A DNA stretch of 64,000 nt from Cladochytrium replicatum (Eukaryota > Chytridiomycota > Chytridiomycetes > Cladochytriales > Cladochytriaceae): the NCBI GenBank assembly GCA_025526935.1, contig JAHLKD010000039.1:310001-374000 (forward strand), given 5' to 3'. Below the pieces are notes generated by a model. That model saw nothing but the letters and a program-made list of their open reading frames with translations, did no database searches and had not been told where the DNA came from. The position numbers were made by a program, and so were the translations under genes. Positions 10,521 to 61,094 of the stretch are shown here, in pieces; the stretch's first letter is position 1, and each line of letters starts with the position of its first letter.

Positions 10521-13500
10521 ATGGCGGACGACTATCTTTTCGAAGATTCCACAATGAAAGATCGCGATGACGATCTCTTTGAGGAGGACGACGATGGGAG
10601 GGAACAGCTTATGGAAGAGATAGCAGACGATCGTTATGGAGGTAATTGCGGAGCATTATTTGTTATTAGTAGGTGCAGGGCTGACCCATTCTCTGGAAGA
10701 CCCGCTGAAAGACGACTTGGACCAGGAGGATGTGTGGACGGTCATTTCTGCTTTTTTCGACCTCAAAGGTCTTGTGCGGCAACAGCTGGATTCGTTCGAT
10801 GAGTTTATTGAGAATACAATGCAAGAAGTGGTGGACGAAACGGCACAACTCGTGATGCAGATGAACTCGAATTTTACTGGCGATGATACTGATGTAGCTG
10901 TATGTATTAGCATTTAGAGCAGTGAAATTGTGAGTTCATCCATCTTCAATTCCAGAAACAATATGTTATCCACTTTGGACAAATCTACGTCAGTAAACCC
11001 ACAAATGTCGAAGGAGATGGAGTTGTCAACACAATTTTCCCCCAAGAAGCTCGTCTGAGGAATTTAACGTAGGCAAATTTGATTTCATTTGAAGTAATTC
11101 GTCCTTAACCGATGTCTGCAGATACTCGGCTCCAATCTACCTCGACATGAAAATGGAAACGCGTTCTGCGCGTGCAGATGGAACGTGGAGGACGGAGAAA
11201 GCAGACTCTGACTGGGCTCGAATTGGTATTGGTGCAGTGCCCATCATGCTGCGTTCCAAATTCTGTATTCTTTCGGATATGAGAGAGTCGGACATTATGG
11301 AGGCTGGTGAATGCCCTTACGATATGGTGTGCTGTTTTCGTGATTCTCTTATTGAAATGCTGAATTTTCTGCTCACAATAGGGTGGATACTTTGTAGTGA
11401 AGGGTTCCGAGAAAGTTTTGATCGCTCAGGAGAGAATGTCTAACAACCAGGTCTACTGCTTTGCCAAAAGCGGTCCTGGACCGCATCCCTACTCTTTCTC
11501 CGCCGAAATCCGCTCGCAGGCTGAAACAGGAAGTAAGGTCGCGAGTCCTGTCTTCATAAAAATGCAGCAGCGAGGAGGCGAGAAAGGGGTAAGCAATGGA
11601 CTCCGACTTAGGAAAAAAATTTCTGACAACCACTGAAGCAAGGACATGGGCATTATTTGCGAACGTCACTGCCCTATATTAAATCAGATGTTCCAGTTGT
11701 GATCGTCTTCCGTGCATTGAACGTGATCGCCGACAAGGATATTTTGGAGTTGATCTGTTATGAGCCGGATGACTATCAGATGCTGGAAGCGATGAAGCCA
11801 TCGATCGAGGAAGCGTTCGTTATCCAGGAACGTGAGGTTGCGCTCGACTTTATCGGGAAGCGTGGAACCACGGTTGGTGCTTCGAAGGAGCGGCGTATTC
11901 GATACGCGCAGGAGATCATGGATAAGGAATTCCTTCCGCATGTCAGTGTAGAGCCCCATCACGAGACTAGGAAGGCGTATTTCTTCGGATACATGATCCA
12001 CCGTCTTCTATCTCTGTCACTTGAGCGTAGAGATCAGGACGATCGTGATCATTTTGGAATGAAGCGGTTGGATCTTGCCGGCGCATTGATGGGAGGTCTC
12101 TTTCGTCAACTATTCAAGAAAATGACGAAGGAGATTAATAACTATATGCGCAAGGTATGAATACTCATTTTGGCTACTCGTCGAGCTTTCTTAAATCTGT
12201 TTTTCTGCTTTTCAGTGTGTTGATACAAATCTTACATTTGACCTGAAGTGGGCTGTCAAAGGGAATATTATCAAAAACGGCTTGCAGTTCTCTTTGGCAA
12301 CCGGAAACTGGGGTGACCAGAAGAAACTGAACGCAGCACGCGCTGGTGTCAGTCAGGTGCTCAACCGTTACACATACGCATCTACGTTGTCGCATTTGCG
12401 CCGCCTTAACACACCCATTGGGCGAGAAGGCAAACTTGCGAAACCTCGTCAGCTGCACAATACACATTGGGGAATGGTGTGCCCTGCAGAGACGCCAGAG
12501 GGACAGGCTTGCGGTCTCGTAAAGAATCTGTCGTTGATGGCGTGCGTTTCCGTGGCGAGCCCGTCGCGACAAGTGATGGAATTCCTAGAAGTGCTTAATT
12601 TAAACAATCTGGATGAAATCCGACCTTCGCAGATCAGCCAGGGCACACGAGTATTTGTGAACGGGCAATGGGTGGGCATTGTTAGTGAAGGAGCAGTCGA
12701 AGAGATGGTTTTGGAATTGCGCAACCTTCGACGAAGGGTCGAGGTATCACCCGAGCTTTCGATCGTTCGGGATGTTCGTGAGAAAGAACTGTGGATTTAC
12801 ACCGATGCTGGAAGAATTTACCGGCCATTATTTATCGTCGATGAGAAGACACACCACACTTACATTCAACCAAGACATATAACCCAGATTCTGGACAAGG
12901 TGGTTACACTCACGAATTATCATAATCCATTTACTTAACGCATCTTTGTTTAGGAATTGAGCTTTGACGATCTGCTGGTGGAAGGGTTAGTCGAGTACAT
13001 TGACACACTGGAAGAAGAGACCATCATGATTGCAATGAGCCAGTCTGACCTGACTCAGACGAGAACACACTTGCTTCAGCAGGCGGATCCAGATCTTGAA
13101 ATCCCACCAAATCCACACGCTGGAGACACATCATACCGCCTGAAGCCCAATGCTGGTGCCTACTCACAGCAGTGGACTCACTGCGAAATCCATCCTGCCA
13201 TGATCTTGGGTATTTGTGCTTCAATCATACCGTTCCCCGATCACAACCAGTCTCCTCGTAACACATACCAGTCCGCCATGGGTAAACAAGCAATGGGAAC
13301 CTTCTTGACAAATTACTTGCTACGATACGATACGATGATGAACATTCTGTTCTATCCTCAAAAGCCCTTGGCAACGACACGATCGATGGAATACCTACGA
13401 TTCCGAGAGCTTCCTGCTGGGCAGAACGCTTGTGTAGCGATCGCATGCTATTCAGGTTATAATCAGGAAGATTCCATTATTATGAACCAGTCGTCTATCG

Positions 13501-14729
13501 ACAGGGGACTTTTCAGGTCTATGTACTACCGGGTTTATATGGATCAAGAGAAGAAAGTTGGAATGCTTCAGACGGAAACTTTTGAGAAGCCAACTCGAGA
13601 AACGACCTTGAGGTTGCGCCATGGTACTTATGAAAAGCTGGAAGACGATGGCTTGATTGCTCCAGGAATGCGTGTGTCGGGTGACGACATCATTATCGGA
13701 AAGGTAAGAAATTGAGCGGTTGCAAATCTATGTACCATTGTGCTACATTGCCTTTTGTTTTACAGACTGTTCCACTGCAAACTGAGTCTGATGAGCTTGG
13801 CCAGCGCCAGGCTCAGACCAAGCGAGATGCCTCGACTCCGTTGAAGAGTACTGAGCAGGGCATTGTTGATTCCGTGCTCGTGACAACCAACTCAGACGGA
13901 TACAAATTCATCAAAGTGCGCGTTCGCTCTGTTCGTGTGCCTCAGATGGGAGACAAGTTTGCATCTCGGCACGGTCAGAAGGGTACTGTCGGTATGACCT
14001 ACCGACAGGAAGATATGCCGTTTACTGCAGAAGGGATCAGTCCTGATCTGATTATCAACCCTCACGCTATTCCTTCCCGTATGACCATCGGTCACTTGGT
14101 TGAGTGTCTGCTATCCAAAGTTGCGACTCTTACTGGACAGGAAGGAGACGCCACTCCCTTCACTGATCTCACTGTCCACCAAGTTAGCGACCTGTTGTAC
14201 CAGCACGGGTACCAGCAGCGTGGTTTCGAAGTACTTTACAACGGCCACACCGGCCAAAAGTTGCGCGCACAGCTATTCATGGGACCGACGTACTACCAAC
14301 GTCTGAAGCACATGGTAGACGACAAGATCCATTCGCGTGCACGCGGACCGGTGCAGATCCTGACACGGCAGCCGGTCGAGGGTCGTTCTAGGGACGGTGG
14401 GTTGCGTTTCGGAGAGATGGAGCGTGATTGTATGATCAGTCACGGAGCGGCACATTTCTTGAAGGTCAGTTGTGGTTCATGTTTTGGTTTACCTCGTCGC
14501 TCACAGTTCATTGCAGGAGCGGTTGTTTGATGTCTCCGATGCATACAGGATCCACGTGTGTGACCTGTGCGGGCTGATGGCGATTGCAAATTTGAAACGA
14601 AACAATTTCCAGTGCCGCGCCTGCAAGAATACTACACAGGTGTCTCAGGTGCACCTGCCATATGCGTGCAAGTTGCTTTTCCAAGAGCTAATGGCGATGA
14701 ACATAGCGCCGCGGTTGATGGTCGTGTAA
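10521..14729 (+). CDS. RPB2: RNA polymerase II second-largest subunit RPB2
   Basis: About ten exons (first 10521-10641, then 10680-10899, 10956 on) give a complete RPB2. The order of conserved segments is right from end to end. They include [137 protein letters not shown] and [19 protein letters not shown]. The C-terminal clamp zinc motif [21 protein letters not shown] is intact. It forms half of the active-site cleft of RNA polymerase II in the nucleus. Introns are 37-70 bp; the third has a CCTTAAC branch site. An AATAAA-like signal lies about 55 bp after the stop. Nothing in the sequence suggests disruption. Confidence 0.97.
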
Positions 14730-21880: not shown

Positions 21881-22068
21881 ATCCTCTCATGGCCTTTTGG
21901 CTAAGATCAAGTGAAGTATCTGTTCTATCCTGCGTGACAGCTGGATTTCGGGACATGTCCCGAAAACAATTTGTCACACTTATTTTTGGTATCAGCGCGG
22001 TGATTCTGTGCTTGCATAGGTCACCCGCACTGGTGCTGGCGGTATTGCACTACTTCCGCCGTGCGCGA
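21881..22068 (+). ncRNA. U2 spliceosomal snRNA
   Basis: The 5' part GGCCTTTTGGCTAAGATCAA followed by GTG..AGTATCTGTTCT is the diagnostic U2 sequence. Ten bases (ATCCTCTCAT) precede GGCC as in other U2 RNAs, which sets the start at 21881. A perfect hairpin (TTTCGGGACATGTCCCGAAA) matches stem IIb. An Sm site (TTATTTTTGGT) follows at about 21980, then two 3' stem-loops. The last one, GGCGGTATTGCACTACTTCC closing with GCC, carries the U2 stem IV loop. All structural parts are present, so this looks like a working gene; the 3' end is set by the end of the stem IV helix and is approximate. The branch-site recognition sequence reads GAAGTA rather than the usual GTAGTA (position 34 changed to A). Confidence 0.88.
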
Positions 22069-23091
22069 GTCCCTCTGGGGACAACAAAGCTCAAAATTTG
22101 ATTATCAAAATCAGTCATTCTCTGGCAGAATAATAAATGCCTTAGCAAAAGCTTTCGCGTTAAGCTTCATGTCGTCTTAAAAAGATCGTAAAGGATGAAG
22201 CGGTTGTGATGAAATTTCATGACGGAGTATCTCCAACGTTGGGAATGTGTAAATCGAGAGTTTTGAGATCGCGGGGAGTTGTACATGCTAGTAAGCAAGA
22301 TTACTCGAATCAAAGCACTTTACAGGCGACATTCTCGATTAGGGAAGTAAGTTGACAAAGATCAAAGCGATCAAGGTGAGGGCAGAAACTAAGAAGCTAC
22401 CTTGCACTTGTGAGAAACGAATTCCTGAGTAGAAGATTTATAAATGTGTCGAAGTTGCTGTGCTCCATCCCACCCCACACAAGGATCTTTCTGCGACCTC
22501 TATAAATATCCAATATCCTGATTGACGTTGGGAAGGTCCGATCCGATTCTGGTTATCCTTATCAACTGAACTTTGTGGCAACTCTGAAGCACAATTGTGT
22601 CGCACCTATCCGCAATTGATGCTGACCACCTGTGGTGCACCCCAATACCCAGATCGCATACTTTGACCTTCGCTTTTGATTTTTCCAATTTTCTTTCGTT
22701 TTTGTATATTTGTTTATTTCGTTGTGGTGGTCAGTAAGCTTGGAGGATTCCTCCAGAAAATTTTCTGCCGAGTGCTTTTTGCTGGTTTGGGAATCCCGAG
22801 AGTTTGGTCAAGTTGGGGGAGCATGCTTAATTTTGTGGGTCTCATTTTTCTACGAGTTTGTTGGGGTTGGCTGACTTACTGAATGGTGCCCGCATCAGAG
22901 TTGTACATTTCAAATGGCCAAAAGACGCCAAGCTTGTGCTTAGCTGTTTCAAAAATCCGTTGTTGAAGTTGTTGAAACCACCATCTTATAGTCAAGAAAA
23001 TCGAACTGATAAGATTCGCTATCCATGCTTTTTTAAAGTTATCGCTGTCCCAATTGGCAAGTATCTTCTCAATTTATATTCATGCTAAATC
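22069..23091. other. Gene-free spacer
   Basis: About 1 kb downstream of the U2 gene. Only short, domain-free frames are present, one of them rich in Phe/Val (22676-22882), which reflects T-rich DNA. I see no promoter, RNA or repeat I can support. Confidence 0.5.
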
Positions 23092-54222: not shown

Positions 54223-56333
54223 TCATCTGGCAAGAGAGTGCCACAACATCCCGTAGCTGTTCCACATTCTTCTCACAACACCAACTTTGTAAACATAACC
54301 TTCAAGCTCCTTCCGTGCTTCAAAAACGTGCTCCAACTCTCTGATGTCATCGGCAAACATCCGCTCGCTCTCCAGCCTGTCTGCTAGCGAATAACCCCCC
54401 TGTCTACGGAAAGCTGCACGGGCATGAATTCTCAGAGTGTTCGTCTCAGCGAGGAGAAGGCCGGTGGTGACTGAGGTTGGCCAGGTATGGTAAATTTGTG
54501 CGTTATTGAGCAACCTGTCCACTTCTCTGAAAGCGAGCAAATTAAACAAATCCAAACTATGCAGAAGTTTATCACTGAATACCTCAAGCTGCGCCGAAGT
54601 ACTTCCACTTCGCCCGCAACTACCAATCCCCATCGCCGAGCGAACGCGCTCTTCCACGCTGTGTACGTGCCCCACAAGAGAAAGCTGGCAGGAAGCAGCG
54701 CCAACATACCGAAGTTGAGTTCGTTTGCCCGCAAGAGACGGTCCAACGCCGACATGGCCAGCTCCCCATCCAGTTTTGCCTTTTGGACTTGAATAAGAAG
54801 GGAGCGGAGCAAGTCACCTTTTGCAAGAGATGTCAACGGCTTTCGCAAGTGTGATTCATACGCGGAAAGAACAACGCTGATATCTCCTTTGGATGCCATG
54901 TCCTGTATCTTGTCTAGTTCAGTTGGTGATGAGACTCCAGCGTCGCGGGCAAAGGAGACCACCATCCTCTCGAGTGACTTACAAAGCGATAGCGTATCAA
55001 TTCAATATACAATCTGCACAAATAACACATACCTCCAAATCTGATTTCACACTTTCCGCACCCAAGAGAGCCAACTTTGTTTCGCGATGACGCACTGTCT
55101 CCCACATAGAGCTCAGGGGCTCCACGACCCAGTCTCTTGCAAAATTGATCAATGTTTGCTGGGCTTCGTCCAGCCATATTTGGATCGAGTTTGCTCTGTG
55201 CTTCACCATCAAGCCAGTTTTGTACATAAAAAGTCCAGCAAGAAGCGCCGTCACGCCGTGCGTAGCTAGAAACGATGTCGGGAGCAAATACGCTTTCACG
55301 GTATCTCGCAGCTCGCCGGGTAGTGCCACAATCCGTTCTTGAACAGCAATCAATCTTTCGCGCAGCTCGGAATATGTCGCAAAGGGAGATTTCTCGCTTT
55401 CCAATGCTAAGGGAACAAAAGAGTAAGAAGGAGGCTTTCATGTACACTGCTTTGCTTACAAATGGAAAACGTCTCAATGCCGGTCATCAGGGCTACACTT
55501 TCCAGGCGATGAGATCGACATGCCGCAAGAAATTCGGAAACCCTCTCGACAATCAACTCAAGCTTCCTAAGTTCGCCTTCCAAGTACTCCGGACCAATCT
55601 CCCTCCAGCTTTCACAAATATCGTCCGATTTCCAGCACTCCTGAACGAGCATGCCGAGACACCCAGCTTCAAAGGCTCTGACATTTTCAAGCATGGTCTT
55701 CTTCAGCTGCAGCCCGTGCCGAAGCGACTCGTAAACTGTAGTTGGTGGAGACAGAATGACAGAGGTTGAGCGCATGAGTAGTAGTGGAGTTGTTCCAAGC
55801 GATTTAAGTTTGAAAGAGTTCAGAACACCAGGTAGGGCAGCCCAGGCTCTCTGTGCGGCACGCAGTAGGCGAGCTGACAGATTCGAATTTTCTTCCGTCA
55901 CTGTTACTTCTCCGCCTTTTTGGAGAAGGTCAGAGAGAATACTATAAAGTCGAATTGGAATCGAATTGATAGCATAGTAAATGGTGCTCCCAAGATCCGA
56001 TTCGGTTTGTGCTAATCGAACAATGTCCTTTGGAAGATCAGCTGAATGTACCAACAGGATGTTCGCCAAGTGCATGCTTAGGGCAATAGTGGCTCGGGAT
56101 AACAGCAGGAATTCAACTTCATCGCAATTGTCCGTCTTTGAGTCTCGAAAGGATGCGTCGGTTAAGACTCGGTGGATTTCTGCATGCGATGGCAGCTTAT
56201 CTTCGGTACTGCTCCTTTGCTCGCGTGAATGGATGGATGCAAGAGAGCGCCGTGTACTCTTCAGCTTGTGTGAAGTGACTCCCAGTTCCACATTAACTGT
56301 GAGCTGTGCAAACCGATCAGCTACAAAACCCAT
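54223..56333 (-). CDS. NCA2: NCA2-family mitochondrial protein
   Basis: Four exons on the minus strand: about 56333-55407 (through [12 protein letters not shown]), then [20 protein letters not shown] onward, [20 protein letters not shown] onward, and a last exon [18 protein letters not shown] to the stop at 54223. The NCA2 signature is strong: [56 protein letters not shown] (membrane segment), and [10 protein letters not shown] at the end. Another membrane stretch is [20 protein letters not shown]. In yeast, Nca2 acts in expression of the mitochondrial ATP synthase subunits 6 and 8. A strong acceptor (TTTTTTCCAG) lies just upstream of the first ATG I use, so a 5' exon may be missing from this model. 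Confidence 0.82.
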
Positions 56334-56457
56334 TTGGAACGAAGCCACTGGAAAAAAAGTAGCCGCTATGGACCGATTGACTGATCAGCTCACTATTGTT
56401 ATTTACTCTCGGTCTTTCATGGCTTGTTAATAAATATTCTGGTTTATTGGTATCAAT

Positions 56458-59400
56458 TCAAAACATTGATTTTTCCCTGAAAAGCAACCTGCGCGGGTTC
56501 TTTTCGTTCCCCAATGTAACAAACTCGTCTGCAACAAATTGTTTGACTGTTTGTCGACCGACCTTCGCAGTCAATTCCAACTCGTCCCCACCTTCAGAGC
56601 ATAAACTCATTCTTCGACTGCTTCCACGTGCTTTTCGAGTCGAGAGAGGAGATGCTAACACAGATGGCTGAAGAGTCTGATCAAGCATTGCTGCACCAAG
56701 GTCCCCCCAATCAATCTTACGAAATGCTCCGCCGGACCGCTGTCCACTATCAGTTCCCGCCTTGGTTACGCGCCATAGTCCGCCCGGACTTCGGTGGAAC
56801 TCTGCGCCATCCGTGAATTTGTCTACTCTCGGTCTTTGCGAACTTTCTCCTCTTCTTCGAATCGACTCCCTCAGTTGAAATTTGCGCGAAGAGCACTGAG
56901 GCGTGCGACTTTGTTCTCTAGTCCATCTTTTTGGTGTAACACAATTGTTGGGAGATCGATCCCCAAGGTTGGCCTCAAAGTCTGGAGGGCCCTCTCGTGG
57001 GGTTCCGAGTGGCTGTCTTTCGATATTCCTGTGAACGTAGTAGGCTCTTCTGGGTGTTGCCGTGACGTTTGTCGATAACAACTCAACAATATTTTCTTTA
57101 ACCTGCTGCACTTGATTTCTTCGAGCCTGTCGAGGAGAAACATAGTTGGAACCAAAGGTGGGCTTCTGCTGCAAAAAAGTATTTGATCTTGGATGATTCG
57201 CTCTGTTGGTGAGGTTTTGTGAAGAGGTTCGAATTTTGCTTTTTGGACTTCTGGTAGCCACAACAACATCCGAAACCGTTCGTTTGAATCCCCGGGAAGC
57301 AGGGTTGGCCAAATCCTTCAAATTTTGCTTTTGGTCAGTGCCCCTTTTCAGATCCGCTTTGATAGAGCTGAAACTTGATCCTTTCTGAGCCAACATTTTT
57401 CCTTCATTCCTGACAGTCCATCCGTGCAGAGTCTTCATCCTTTTCAATTGATCTGCAAGTCGAGATTGCATAGATCTTTTGGTGATATTTTGCTGGGTAT
57501 CGCAGTGTGTATCACTGCTTGTCTTTATATCGATTTGAGCAGTGTCGTCATGAATCTCGGTCCTCTGTTCTGACTCAACGCGAAGTCGTTTCCTCTCTCT
57601 GATGTCGTTCTCAAGTTCGGGTTTTGAAGAGCGACCTTTCACATTCATCATCTTCTTTGACAATTGTGGCATAGGTTGTGAGACTTCTCTGAATGAACCC
57701 AAGGTAGCTCTGGGGCTACCAATTGTAGTGTTCTTGTGCATATCAAAACCACCTTTGGCCAGCAGTGTAGGAACGAAGTTTGATAATGGTGATCCAAAAC
57801 TGTTGATCATATTAGCTCGGTTCACCGAACGAAAACGTAAGCGACTTACAATGGCACAACGACAAGCTCCGCAAACTGGGCAAATGAATTTCCATCGGCG
57901 CTAATTGACATCTTGTCTATCTCCGGATTTTTTTGGTCCAACAATTGCACTGAACTGAGGGACTCCAGTAGACACATCGACTCTACAATCTCTGCACATC
58001 GGTCTTCCAAAAACCGAATCGGATCATGGGTTTTGTGTCCAAAACCAATCTTTTCGTTGTCATCTGTGACACATTTTCTTTTTCTCGATCGTCCAAGCAG
58101 ATCTGCGAAACTCTTCCCAGACTTCCCCAACGCATTCAGTCGTTTTTTTGACGCTTCCGTTGTCGCATGCTCGGCAATTGTTCGTCGAGTAAGCGTTTCA
58201 GGAATTGGAGGAACTTTGGCACGCTCAACAACATGCAGGCGTAGGCATTCCAGCGTGATAACGAGCTGTAACCTCAGCCTATCAAAATGCGTCGTCAGTG
58301 AACATCAACGCCTTCGTCATGTGGTATTACTCTGTGATTTTCAACTTATTCACAGCGTTTGTGATTCCATCATTCGTGGTGATATCCATCCAGTGCTGCT
58401 CGCGCCATCCGCATATTAGTTCCAAATCTTGAGATTCCATCTGTTGAGCCGGTTCCACTTGGCTGACTAATGGATCTTCAGCAGCTTGCGCACACATTGT
58501 CTTCAACATTATGCTAAAATTTCGATACTTCTGATCGAGCCTGACGAGCGGAACCATCAAATGATGAACGATAAAGTCGATTGCCTGGGAGCGCAACATC
58601 CAATATGAGTGCAAGCAAATAGGACGCGAAGATTATCGTACCTCGCTATTTCGAGAGTTGTTTATGTCTGGATCAGAGTTGAGGTGTCCTGCGGAAGCAG
58701 AACGGAGATTCATGTAAAGATCTGGGAATGCTTCACTAATAAGTTCGGTCAACGTCTTAAAAGCAGCGAGGGGATAAGAAATTGAAACCACGTTGCGTTG
58801 CAGTACTTGTAAATACCTTATCACTAAAGACTACTTCCCGGCACTGCAAGCGGAACTCTTCAAGCACTTCGTAAGCGCTGCGTACAAGATGAACTTTCGG
58901 ATTAGGGCGAAAATTCTCAACATTCACATCCCCAGAAACTGTGTCTTTCATTTCTTGAAGCTTTTGCGAGCCCGTATGCTTCTCATCGAAAGTTGAGCGA
59001 TGTTGCACCGTATGCGCTTCCCATTCAAAGTCAAATACACCCAAGGTGTATGTGAACAGGTCTTTCGTGTTTATTTGCGAGGACGAGAAATCCGACTTCC
59101 GTTCATAGGCATCGAAAAACTCGGTAATCGACTCAGGAAGGTCGTTATTATTCCAAGACGCTTTTGAATCAGCGAAATGGTCTGCACCGGGCTCTCCAAT
59201 GAGCGAAATTACGGCTTGTTCTGCATCGCTTTTAACACAGATAACATAAGCCGATCTAAATCCCGTGTGGTAGAGTAATGCAAGCACGGAGTTGTTGTTG
59301 CTGGTTTCCGAATTGTATCCAACACGAGCCAGCAACGCATTCTTTCCTCCTTCAAGTTGTTCTAGAAGCCTCCCGAATTGTCCCACACTGATCTCGTCCG

Positions 59401-61094
59401 ATACAGGGAAGCACAGGAAATTCTGCCGCAAGAATGTCGCAGAAGTGTCACCATCATTTAAATCGTTCGATTCGTCATCTCCTTCAGCCATGTGATTAGA
59501 GCACAATGAATTTCGATCGATTATCATGTCCCTTGAGATGTGATCATCCACCAAGGAACCAAGAATTGTAATGATCAGAGGCATGGACTTCTCTTTCAAT
59601 GGCATCTCGGACTCTCTTTCGAAGCTCGAAGTGGCTATGGGCACCTCCCTTCGCACACGGTCCCAATTACCAAGATTCAGTTATGTTTCAATCTAAAGAC
59701 CGCCTTTCTTACTTACAGTCGCAAAGGCTTCAAAAAGACTTCGACTTGCACGAGAATGAATTTTAAAACATGCTGGTCGCTATTCTACAAAACATACCGC
59801 GTTCCGATGTCTCGAAGACGATTTCGGCATTGGCAAGAGAATTCTTCGAATCACTTCTCCGAAAGTCCGTGTGAAAGGTGGTCATTGACCAAACTGTTTC
59901 ATTCCCTGCAGAGTTCTCTGGAGAAATTCTGAGTAGATCCTTGCAATCTTTGGGATCCGCAAACTGAAATCGAAGGGGTGCTAAACTGATCTTCAGTGGA
60001 ATGATTGCTCCATTCAAGTTATTCACAAAGGATTGGGGAAGAAATGTTCCAGCGTAAACTTTGAGGATGCAGAAGAGCCAATGATGTATCGTTGCTGATT
60101 CGAAACTGAAAGCAGGACCCTGTTCAGAGATAAGTTGAATATCAAGATAAATGAGACGTTAGAACCTTATCTGAAACAGCGAACCAGCTTAACGACGTCC
60201 GAGTGTCAAGAAACCCATCTAGCAAGCCCCGCCCCAGCAGTCGGTCCCGCAAGCGAAGTAGGAGCACGCTGTGTTTCTGTGGATTTGCATCGAATGCTGA
60301 TGAAACTAATTGAGCACCATCAAATCGAGCAAGGTCGTGAAATGAGCCAGGTGCCCGGCCGAAGAGGAATACATGGTTCCTAATTCTCACAGGATAGCGG
60401 TGCCGAGTTCTTATATCATCCCTGGGTCTACTTGCCGTCATCCCTGCACCAAACGAAGAGTTTACGGCGCGCATTCGCTGGCGACCAGGGGAACTTCTGC
60501 GGGCTCTGGGAACTTCCAAGAGCCATTTGAAATCAGCAAGTGACTTTCTCAGCACCATGGCATATGCGTCGAGAGGACTGGGTGCGGAAGATGAGTTGAT
60601 GTTAGGATCTTTAGGGGCCAAACCAGATAGCGATTCGACTGCCGAAAGTGAAGCATGCTGGACTAATGAGAAGAAGTCACTGTAAGACGAGGAAGAAAAC
60701 TCCTTTCCGTGGCAGGAATGAAGAGGCAAACTTGTTTCTGTTACAGTTGTGCGGTTGAAAATCTGGTAGGTAATTGATGAGATAATGGTTAAGGAAATTC
60801 CGAGAAAGAAAGTTGAGCAGCAGTAATGAGTAACTAATAAGGATATCTCCATGTTACTCTGCTGTCCACGAACAAATAGAAGTAGAGGATCGTTCGTAGC
60901 GCACACGTTGTGGTCGTATCAACAAAACGTGATGCATGGTCCACTGCATCGTCGTTGGTTAATACCGCAAGTGTTGGAATGGCATCGGCGATGTCGATTA
61001 GAAATATTACATTTGGAGGAGGCCGCGTTGCCGTTGCTGGGGAACTGAGCAAGGATTTGGCTGGGTGTTGGTAATTGAAGTTGTCCTTCGCCAT
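56458..61094 (-). CDS. TICRR: Treslin/TICRR-like replication initiation factor (Sld3 family)
   Basis: About nine exons on the minus strand. The N-terminal segment matches the Treslin N-terminal domain: NVIFLIDIADAIPTLAV, CALRTILYFYLFVDSRVTW, SPLDAYAMVLRKSLADFKWL, VRIRNHVFLFGRAPGSFHD. Then come ISLAPLRFQFADPKD and FGRLLEQLEGGKNALLARVG. The Sld3/Treslin domain is ITELRLQLVITLECLRLHVV..FAELVVVPFFGSPLSNFV. A basic, disordered C-terminus with SP/TP sites follows. Sld3/Treslin, once phosphorylated by S-CDK, brings CDC45 to the replicative helicase via Dpb11/TopBP1. Yeast Sld3 lacks the N-terminal domain seen here. One intron (60770-60846) looks U12-type. The gene ends about 125 bp upstream of the first ATG of NCA2 on the same strand and diverges from the cyclin gene. 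Confidence 0.78.
60770..60846 (-). other. Candidate U12-type AT-AC intron
   Basis: Read on the minus strand, the 77-bp intron begins ATATCCTT and has TTTCCTTAACC 19 nt before an end in ATTAC. These are the U12-type 5' splice site, branch site and AC 3' end. Phase is right: ..VTW AG/C TAC CAG ATT TTC gives VTWSYQIFN. A GT-AG alternative (donor GTAACA inside exon 1, acceptor CTACCAG) is also in frame but removes the strand VTWSYQ that aligns with the Treslin family. Confidence 0.6.

Follow-up and report, generated by a model that had tools for sequence, protein, structure and literature searches.

The Sld3/Treslin gene

In the window, i.e. the whole 64,000-nt stretch of Cladochytrium replicatum DNA analysed here, the minus strand carries a gene for which we built a model by hand, with eight exons between 61094 and 56458 that encode 1377 aa and are joined by one AT-AC and six GT-AG introns. 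Exon 1 (60847..61094) begins with an ATG at 61094, exon 2 lies at 60166..60769, and exons 3-8, joined by the GT-AG introns, lie at 59798-60119, 58817-59634, 58642-58755, 58331-58584, 57850-58278 and 56458-57799. The Sld3_STD domain (PF08639) was found in exons 6-7 with 28.6 bits (cut-off 24.9, E 7.8e-7), which identifies the gene as Sld3/Treslin, and the label given in a preliminary description of this DNA is therefore supported. The domain is common to this gene and to known Sld3/Treslin (TICRR); the fungal gene also has a long N-terminal part, without counterpart in yeast Sld3. A PDB search with the STD part returned only myoglobin (E 0.7), and one with the N-terminal part gave no relevant match.

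According to Ferreira 2022 (PMC8807876), fungi lack the N-terminal CIT/vWA domain. Despite this statement, the N-terminal region at 60166-61094 shows a weak match to Treslin_N (PF21854), obtained on exon 2 alone with 14.0 bits (cut-off 26.5, E 0.038). If a vWA domain is confirmed here, its loss would postdate the branching-off of zoosporic fungi. Other genes of the window include, in the region 54432-61094 (minus strand), an NCA2-like gene downstream of Sld3/Treslin, a major U2 snRNA gene at 21881-22075 (plus strand, 132.5 bits) and an RPB2 gene of several exons at 11627-14530 (plus strand). Two of the RPB2 exons are matched best, ahead of human chains, by PDB 3h0g_B, a chain of the fungal-type RNA polymerase II of fission yeast.

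A probable AT-AC intron between exons 1 and 2

Exons 1 and 2 are separated by 77 nt (60770..60846, minus strand), a candidate AT-AC minor (U12-type) intron of phase 2 that we assigned from its motifs, its reading frame and a weight-matrix scan. It starts at 60846 with ATATCCTTA, which matches the U12-type 5' splice site RTATCCTT(T), and its 5' splice site ATATCCTT (60839..60846) belongs to a TT class comprising 4 of the 13 introns that we accepted in this genome. Close to the 3' end, TTTCCTTAACC (60787..60797) matches the U12-type branch site TTCCTTRAY with the putative branch A at 60789, and the intron ends in CAATTAC, with the AC of the 3' splice site at 60770..60771 and the last base at 60770. 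The distance from this branch A to the AC is 19 nt; the longest distances usual in animals are no greater than this, a point that counts against the AT-AC reading. All letters and coordinates of the U12 hallmarks were exactly as the preliminary description had given them, and when the window was scanned on both strands, using hand-set weights that follow the U12 consensus, this site came first with 30.5 bits, followed by a runner-up at 17.1 bits. In 60 dinucleotide-shuffled versions of the full window no site reached this score (highest 28.0 bits, mean of the maxima 19.3).

Reading through the intron meets stop codons, and the AT-AC joint yields ...FVDSRVTWSYQIFNRTT... with the frame kept. It had been claimed that only the AC end restores the frame with the AT start; the AT-AC joint is indeed in frame, but so is a GT-AG splice at 60857-60763 (minus strand), the very splice listed in the preliminary description as refuting the AT-AC reading. 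This rival intron of 95 nt encloses the AT-AC intron, is 18 nt longer and would delete VTWSYQ. It could be an ordinary major-spliceosome intron (GTAACA...CTACCAG) that uses CCTTAAC for branching, with the U12 motifs present by chance, and since loose donors (such as GTTCTAACG and GTATTTACA) occur elsewhere in the gene, GTAACATGG would be within range. Nevertheless we consider this highly improbable, because chance would have to place both ATATCCTT and TTTCCTTAACC within one 77-nt stretch, and because the same genome holds candidates for the minor snRNAs and no fewer than 11 AT-AC introns supported by homology (see below). Moreover, VTWSYQ, which the GT-AG splice would remove, would align with a conserved strand of human TICRR. 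The preliminary description likewise lined up VTWSYQIFN with a conserved V.W..(F/Y).(I/F)F stretch of Treslin. At the place of the AT-AC joint, human TICRR presumably contains a comparable stretch, RV.W.(F/Y).(F/I)F, so that, judged from sequence, it is plausible that this joint restores the conserved strand. Treslin_N did not match the joined N-terminal proteins of either joint (Pfam, E up to 10), and thus Pfam does not discriminate between them.

The GT of the rival lies inside a Val codon and its AG inside a Gln codon, and since both dinucleotides belong to codons they need no splicing role. The same point weighs against a twintron, in which both introns would be used to give two in-frame isoforms six residues apart, or in which a transition from U12-type to U2-type would be under way. 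We regard such an arrangement as improbable, although a U12-type intron does lie nested in a frame-keeping U2-type one with a difference of 18 nt, and minor-to-major conversion of introns, which counts in favour of this reading, is discussed in PMC10639083.

Thus, 60846-60770 is very probably an AT-AC minor-spliceosome intron, as far as sequence can tell, located in the initial third of the Ku70-like region of the Sld3/Treslin gene of a zoosporic fungus, whose lineage also seems to be donor-shifted. We infer that the transcript is spliced at the AT-AC sites. In such a process, the 5' splice site ATATCCTT would be recognised by U11 and the branch site TTTCCTTAAC by U12, after which U4atac/U6atac would take the place of U11; use of the AC at 60770 as the 3' splice site would produce a protein containing ...SRVTWSYQIFN....

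Candidate minor spliceosome components and further accepted AT-AC introns

Along the lines proposed in the preliminary description, the assembly (50.5 Mb, 198 contigs) was searched for minor snRNAs and for the minor-spliceosome protein SNRNP25. The genome also contains 24 matches to the Fungal_trans domain and an IFT57 gene, a flagellar marker (best E 2.1e-19). U6atac was found at C48:88258-88380 (L001:1501-1623, minus strand) with 34.4 bits, above the RF00619 cut-off of 33 (genome-wide E 1.7e-5), with TATAAAA upstream and a T run downstream; no second U6atac exceeded the Rfam cut-off genome-wide, and the next match had E 0.73. The other three snRNAs are candidates below their cut-offs. The U4atac candidate (C34:88465-88606) scores 42.8 bits (RF00618 cut-off 53, genome-wide E 1.1e-4) and has an Sm site. 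The U11 candidate on C24 (L019:1360-1617) scores 36.0 bits (RF00548 cut-off 39), with E 7e-4 in a two-locus scan and 0.067 genome-wide; it contains an exact GGUAUGGCAAUCAAGA...AGCAUAAUUUUUG part and is 258 nt long owing to a large insert between the conserved parts. A second, weaker U11-like copy with an interrupted Sm region lies on C25 (L020).

The U12 candidate (C13:358282-358427) scores 19.7 bits (RF00007 cut-off 53), with E 0.65 in a one-locus scan and 2.4 genome-wide. Its 5' end carries UGCCGCAACAAAUGAGUAAGGAUAACAA, with UGCC...AAUGAGUAAGGA in place, and its branch-binding 5' part matches by eye. A TATA box precedes the putative start by ~31-37 nt in U4, U6atac, U11 and U12 (35 nt for U12); at this position none was found for U2, U4atac or the second U11. 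We infer that the two loci named are the U11 and U12 genes. SNRNP25, a protein of the U11/U12 particle, was matched with 31.7 bits (cut-off 22.8).

The pairing among these RNAs was then considered. Where U6atac has UGUUGGCA instead of the Rfam consensus GGUUAGCA, the U4atac candidate has UUGCCAAC, the exact complement of UGUUGGCA, and in stem II CGUUCCUCCCU of U4atac and GGGGAGGGACG of U6atac pair fully if G-U is allowed, so that both stems I and II of U4atac are complementary to the local U6atac. Co-folding of the 5' parts of U4atac and U6atac gave -56.8 kcal/mol, compared with -42.0 +/- 3.4 for shuffled U4atac (none of 500 as low) and with only -34.2 kcal/mol for U6atac with major U4. At the catalytic-triad position, U6atac has GGC in place of the AGC of the Rfam consensus; facing this GGC, the U12 candidate carries UGCC, so that the helix could still form. 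The 5' end of U12 (UGCC.CAAC) gave -8.4 with the changed GUUGGCA part of U6atac.

A scan for further U12-type sites, also proposed in the preliminary description, led to 12 more accepted AT-AC introns, 11 of which have a protein match across the joint: those in the genes for CstF-64, Pol delta, IPMK, exportin-5, two paralogous ChAPs, an Alg9-like protein, an LRR protein, YL1, a CDK and a MICU-like protein. For the twelfth, in an MSH-like gene, protein searches found no match and it was accepted on frames alone; the Treslin intron was likewise accepted on frames, plus the TICRR-like motif. The IPMK intron could alternatively end at an AG, and its PDB comparison concerns the AC form only.

These introns were collected with four patterns, each compared with a reversed control. 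RTATCCTT..TTCCTTRAY gave 6 matches (3 reversed), of which those in Treslin and CstF-64 were accepted, and RTATCCTT..TYCTTRAY gave 44 (21 reversed), all scored by script with 26 loci displayed and 4 accepted; several of the rejected ones were plainly coding (EH domain, TTLL, DEAD helicase). The broader RTATCC..TCCTTAAC gave 56 matches (18 reversed), of which 54 were read and 13 accepted, including Treslin, the two unread ones being C66:50531, a near-copy of another match, and C112:111231. The remaining read matches were dropped as coding, doubtful or without exons; the doubtful ones include, among others, L069 and L073 (ATATCCAC), L082 (ATATCCGC), L094 (ATATCCAAA) and L097. Finally, RTATCCAC..TYCTTRAY gave 27 matches (2 reversed), of which 20 were read and 6 accepted, all within the 13, and the 7 unread ones all begin with GTATCC.

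All 13 accepted introns are AT-AC; no GT-AG minor intron was accepted in this narrow search with fixed motifs and introns up to ~100 nt. From the branch A to the AC, the four TT introns span 19-26 nt; the remaining nine span 10-38 nt, with four at 12 nt. A different branch site may be in use in the case at 38 nt, in the CDK gene (L071). The U12 candidate reads GUAAGGAU compared with the consensus GUAAGGAA; at the base preceding TCCTTAAC, 7 of the 13 introns have T, 5 have A and 1 has G, numbers too small to speak of a shift. The phases (seven introns of phase 1, five of phase 2 and one of phase 0) have the same bias as described for minor introns in PMC10639083. The same source accepts minor splicing for a genome with no fewer than three minor introns together with two minor snRNAs at E 0.01. 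U6atac and U4atac, though not U11 and U12, pass this E value genome-wide, and together with the introns the genome thus counts as having minor splicing. The claim that this lineage keeps a minor spliceosome therefore holds, on the basis of U6atac above its cut-off, U4atac pairing with it, the U11 and U12 candidates, SNRNP25 and the 12 further introns.

Minor introns had also been described as lost from most fungi, which is fair for Ascomycota and Basidiomycota, but for chytrids, Mucorales, Glomeromycota and Basidiobolus minor introns are published (PMC10639083). According to PMC10639083 and PMC2846911, minor splicing is on record for Spizellomyces, Neocallimastigomycetes, Rhizopus, Phycomyces and Basidiobolus, and these accounts, like the genome here, show fungi outside Dikarya with minor snRNAs and a limited number of minor introns. 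Hence, retention alone is less surprising than it had first appeared.

Donor classes and the change in U6atac

In U6atac the box that reads AAGGAGAGA in the Rfam consensus reads GUGGAGAGA here. At positions +7/+8 the 13 introns have AC (6), AT (2), GC (1) or TT (4); thus, nine begin with ATATCC followed by a purine and a pyrimidine (R-Y), and four, Treslin included, keep TT. Because GU of the local U6atac is complementary to R-Y at +7/+8, these donors match the change in U6atac. In computed duplexes, the nine R-Y donors reached -5.4 to -8.2 kcal/mol with the local U6atac and -3.3 to -3.4 with the canonical piece, and the relation was reversed for the four TT donors (-3.1 to -3.2 kcal/mol local, -5.1 to -5.5 canonical). 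With TYCTTRAY as the branch pattern, the AC form of the donor gave 27 matches (2 reversed) and the TT form 44 (21 reversed). With the predicted 5' end of U11, GUCAAGGGCUG, the TT donors gave -3.9 to -6.0 and the R-Y donors -2.2 to -2.3, or -3.6 in another register, and no change matching the R-Y donors was found in the U11 candidate.

These data suggest that in this lineage the minor 5' splice site shifted from ATATCCTT to ATATCC-R-Y through a linked change of U6atac from AAGGAG to GUGGAG. The pattern has the appearance of co-evolution between a minor snRNA and the 5' splice sites that it reads. More fully, we think it likely that the minor 5' splice site was re-coded by this change in U6atac, with most donors going from ATATCC-UU to ATATCC-R-Y, with compensatory changes of U4atac and U12 in their helices with U6atac, and with U11 not following. 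Re-coding without U11 would leave two classes of donors, the shifted one in accord with U6atac and the ancestral one (Treslin, CstF-64, Pol delta and IPMK) still in accord with U11. The Treslin intron would then belong to the unshifted minority, with a donor good for U11 and poor for the local U6atac. If this is true, the two classes form a natural experiment on which RNA, U6atac or U11, sets the donor.

The ATATCC-R-Y class could instead reflect chance or enrichment in coding sequence, with the U6atac at L001 being a decayed copy. Some observations agree with this: only 6 of the 20 read among the 27 matches to the ATATCCAC pattern were accepted, and the 11 read matches lacking TCCTTAAC gave none; the reversed patterns differ in composition and are an imperfect control; and an open AT-AC joint at L094 (ATATCCAAA), left uncounted, would break the R-Y rule. 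We still judge it unlikely, because AT-AC joints occur in six ATATCCAC introns, two ATATCCAT introns and one ATATCCGC intron, with the joint spanned by a protein match in eight of the nine, and because the U4atac candidate is exactly complementary to the local U6atac and not to the canonical one, the former being the single U6atac above the cut-off.

The ATATCCTT donor, the TTCCTTAAC branch site, the AC acceptor and phases away from 0 are common to the set here and to the U12-type AT-AC introns known from Rhizophagus irregularis, plants and animals. The set here differs in that most accepted introns start with ATATCC-R-Y and that the branch-to-AC distance is longer in part of them (10-38 nt). 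Rhizophagus motifs stay close to those of animals and plants (PMC10639083), and the passages on early fungi consulted in PMC10639083 and PMC2846911 mention no shifted U6atac or donor. A shifted pair of U6atac and donor in a fungus was not found in the literature on minor splicing surveyed, as far as the parts consulted extend, which is not proof of absence. The Treslin intron adds a member to a known kind and by itself only extends by one genome the list of fungi with minor splicing; the system of U6atac and donors appears to be a so far undescribed variant of that kind.

Descriptions of the minor 5' splice site usually present it as nearly invariant. The joint change in U6atac, U4atac and donors is of more weight than the Treslin intron, since it would indicate that this site can be re-coded, and how. 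A likeness may be seen in Physarum polycephalum, where the minor system itself is reportedly changed as well, its minor splicing being called 'transformed' (Larue et al. 2021). In lineages with a changed minor system, minor introns may be undercounted by intron classifiers and covariance models that were trained on animals and plants, a warning that we give because three of the four minor snRNA candidates here fall below the curated Rfam scores.

As a further observation, the two paralogous ChAPs genes (L068 and L077) share their AT-AC intron, with ATATCCACG in one and ATATCCATG in the other, and both donors fit the U6atac G, as G-C or as G-U.
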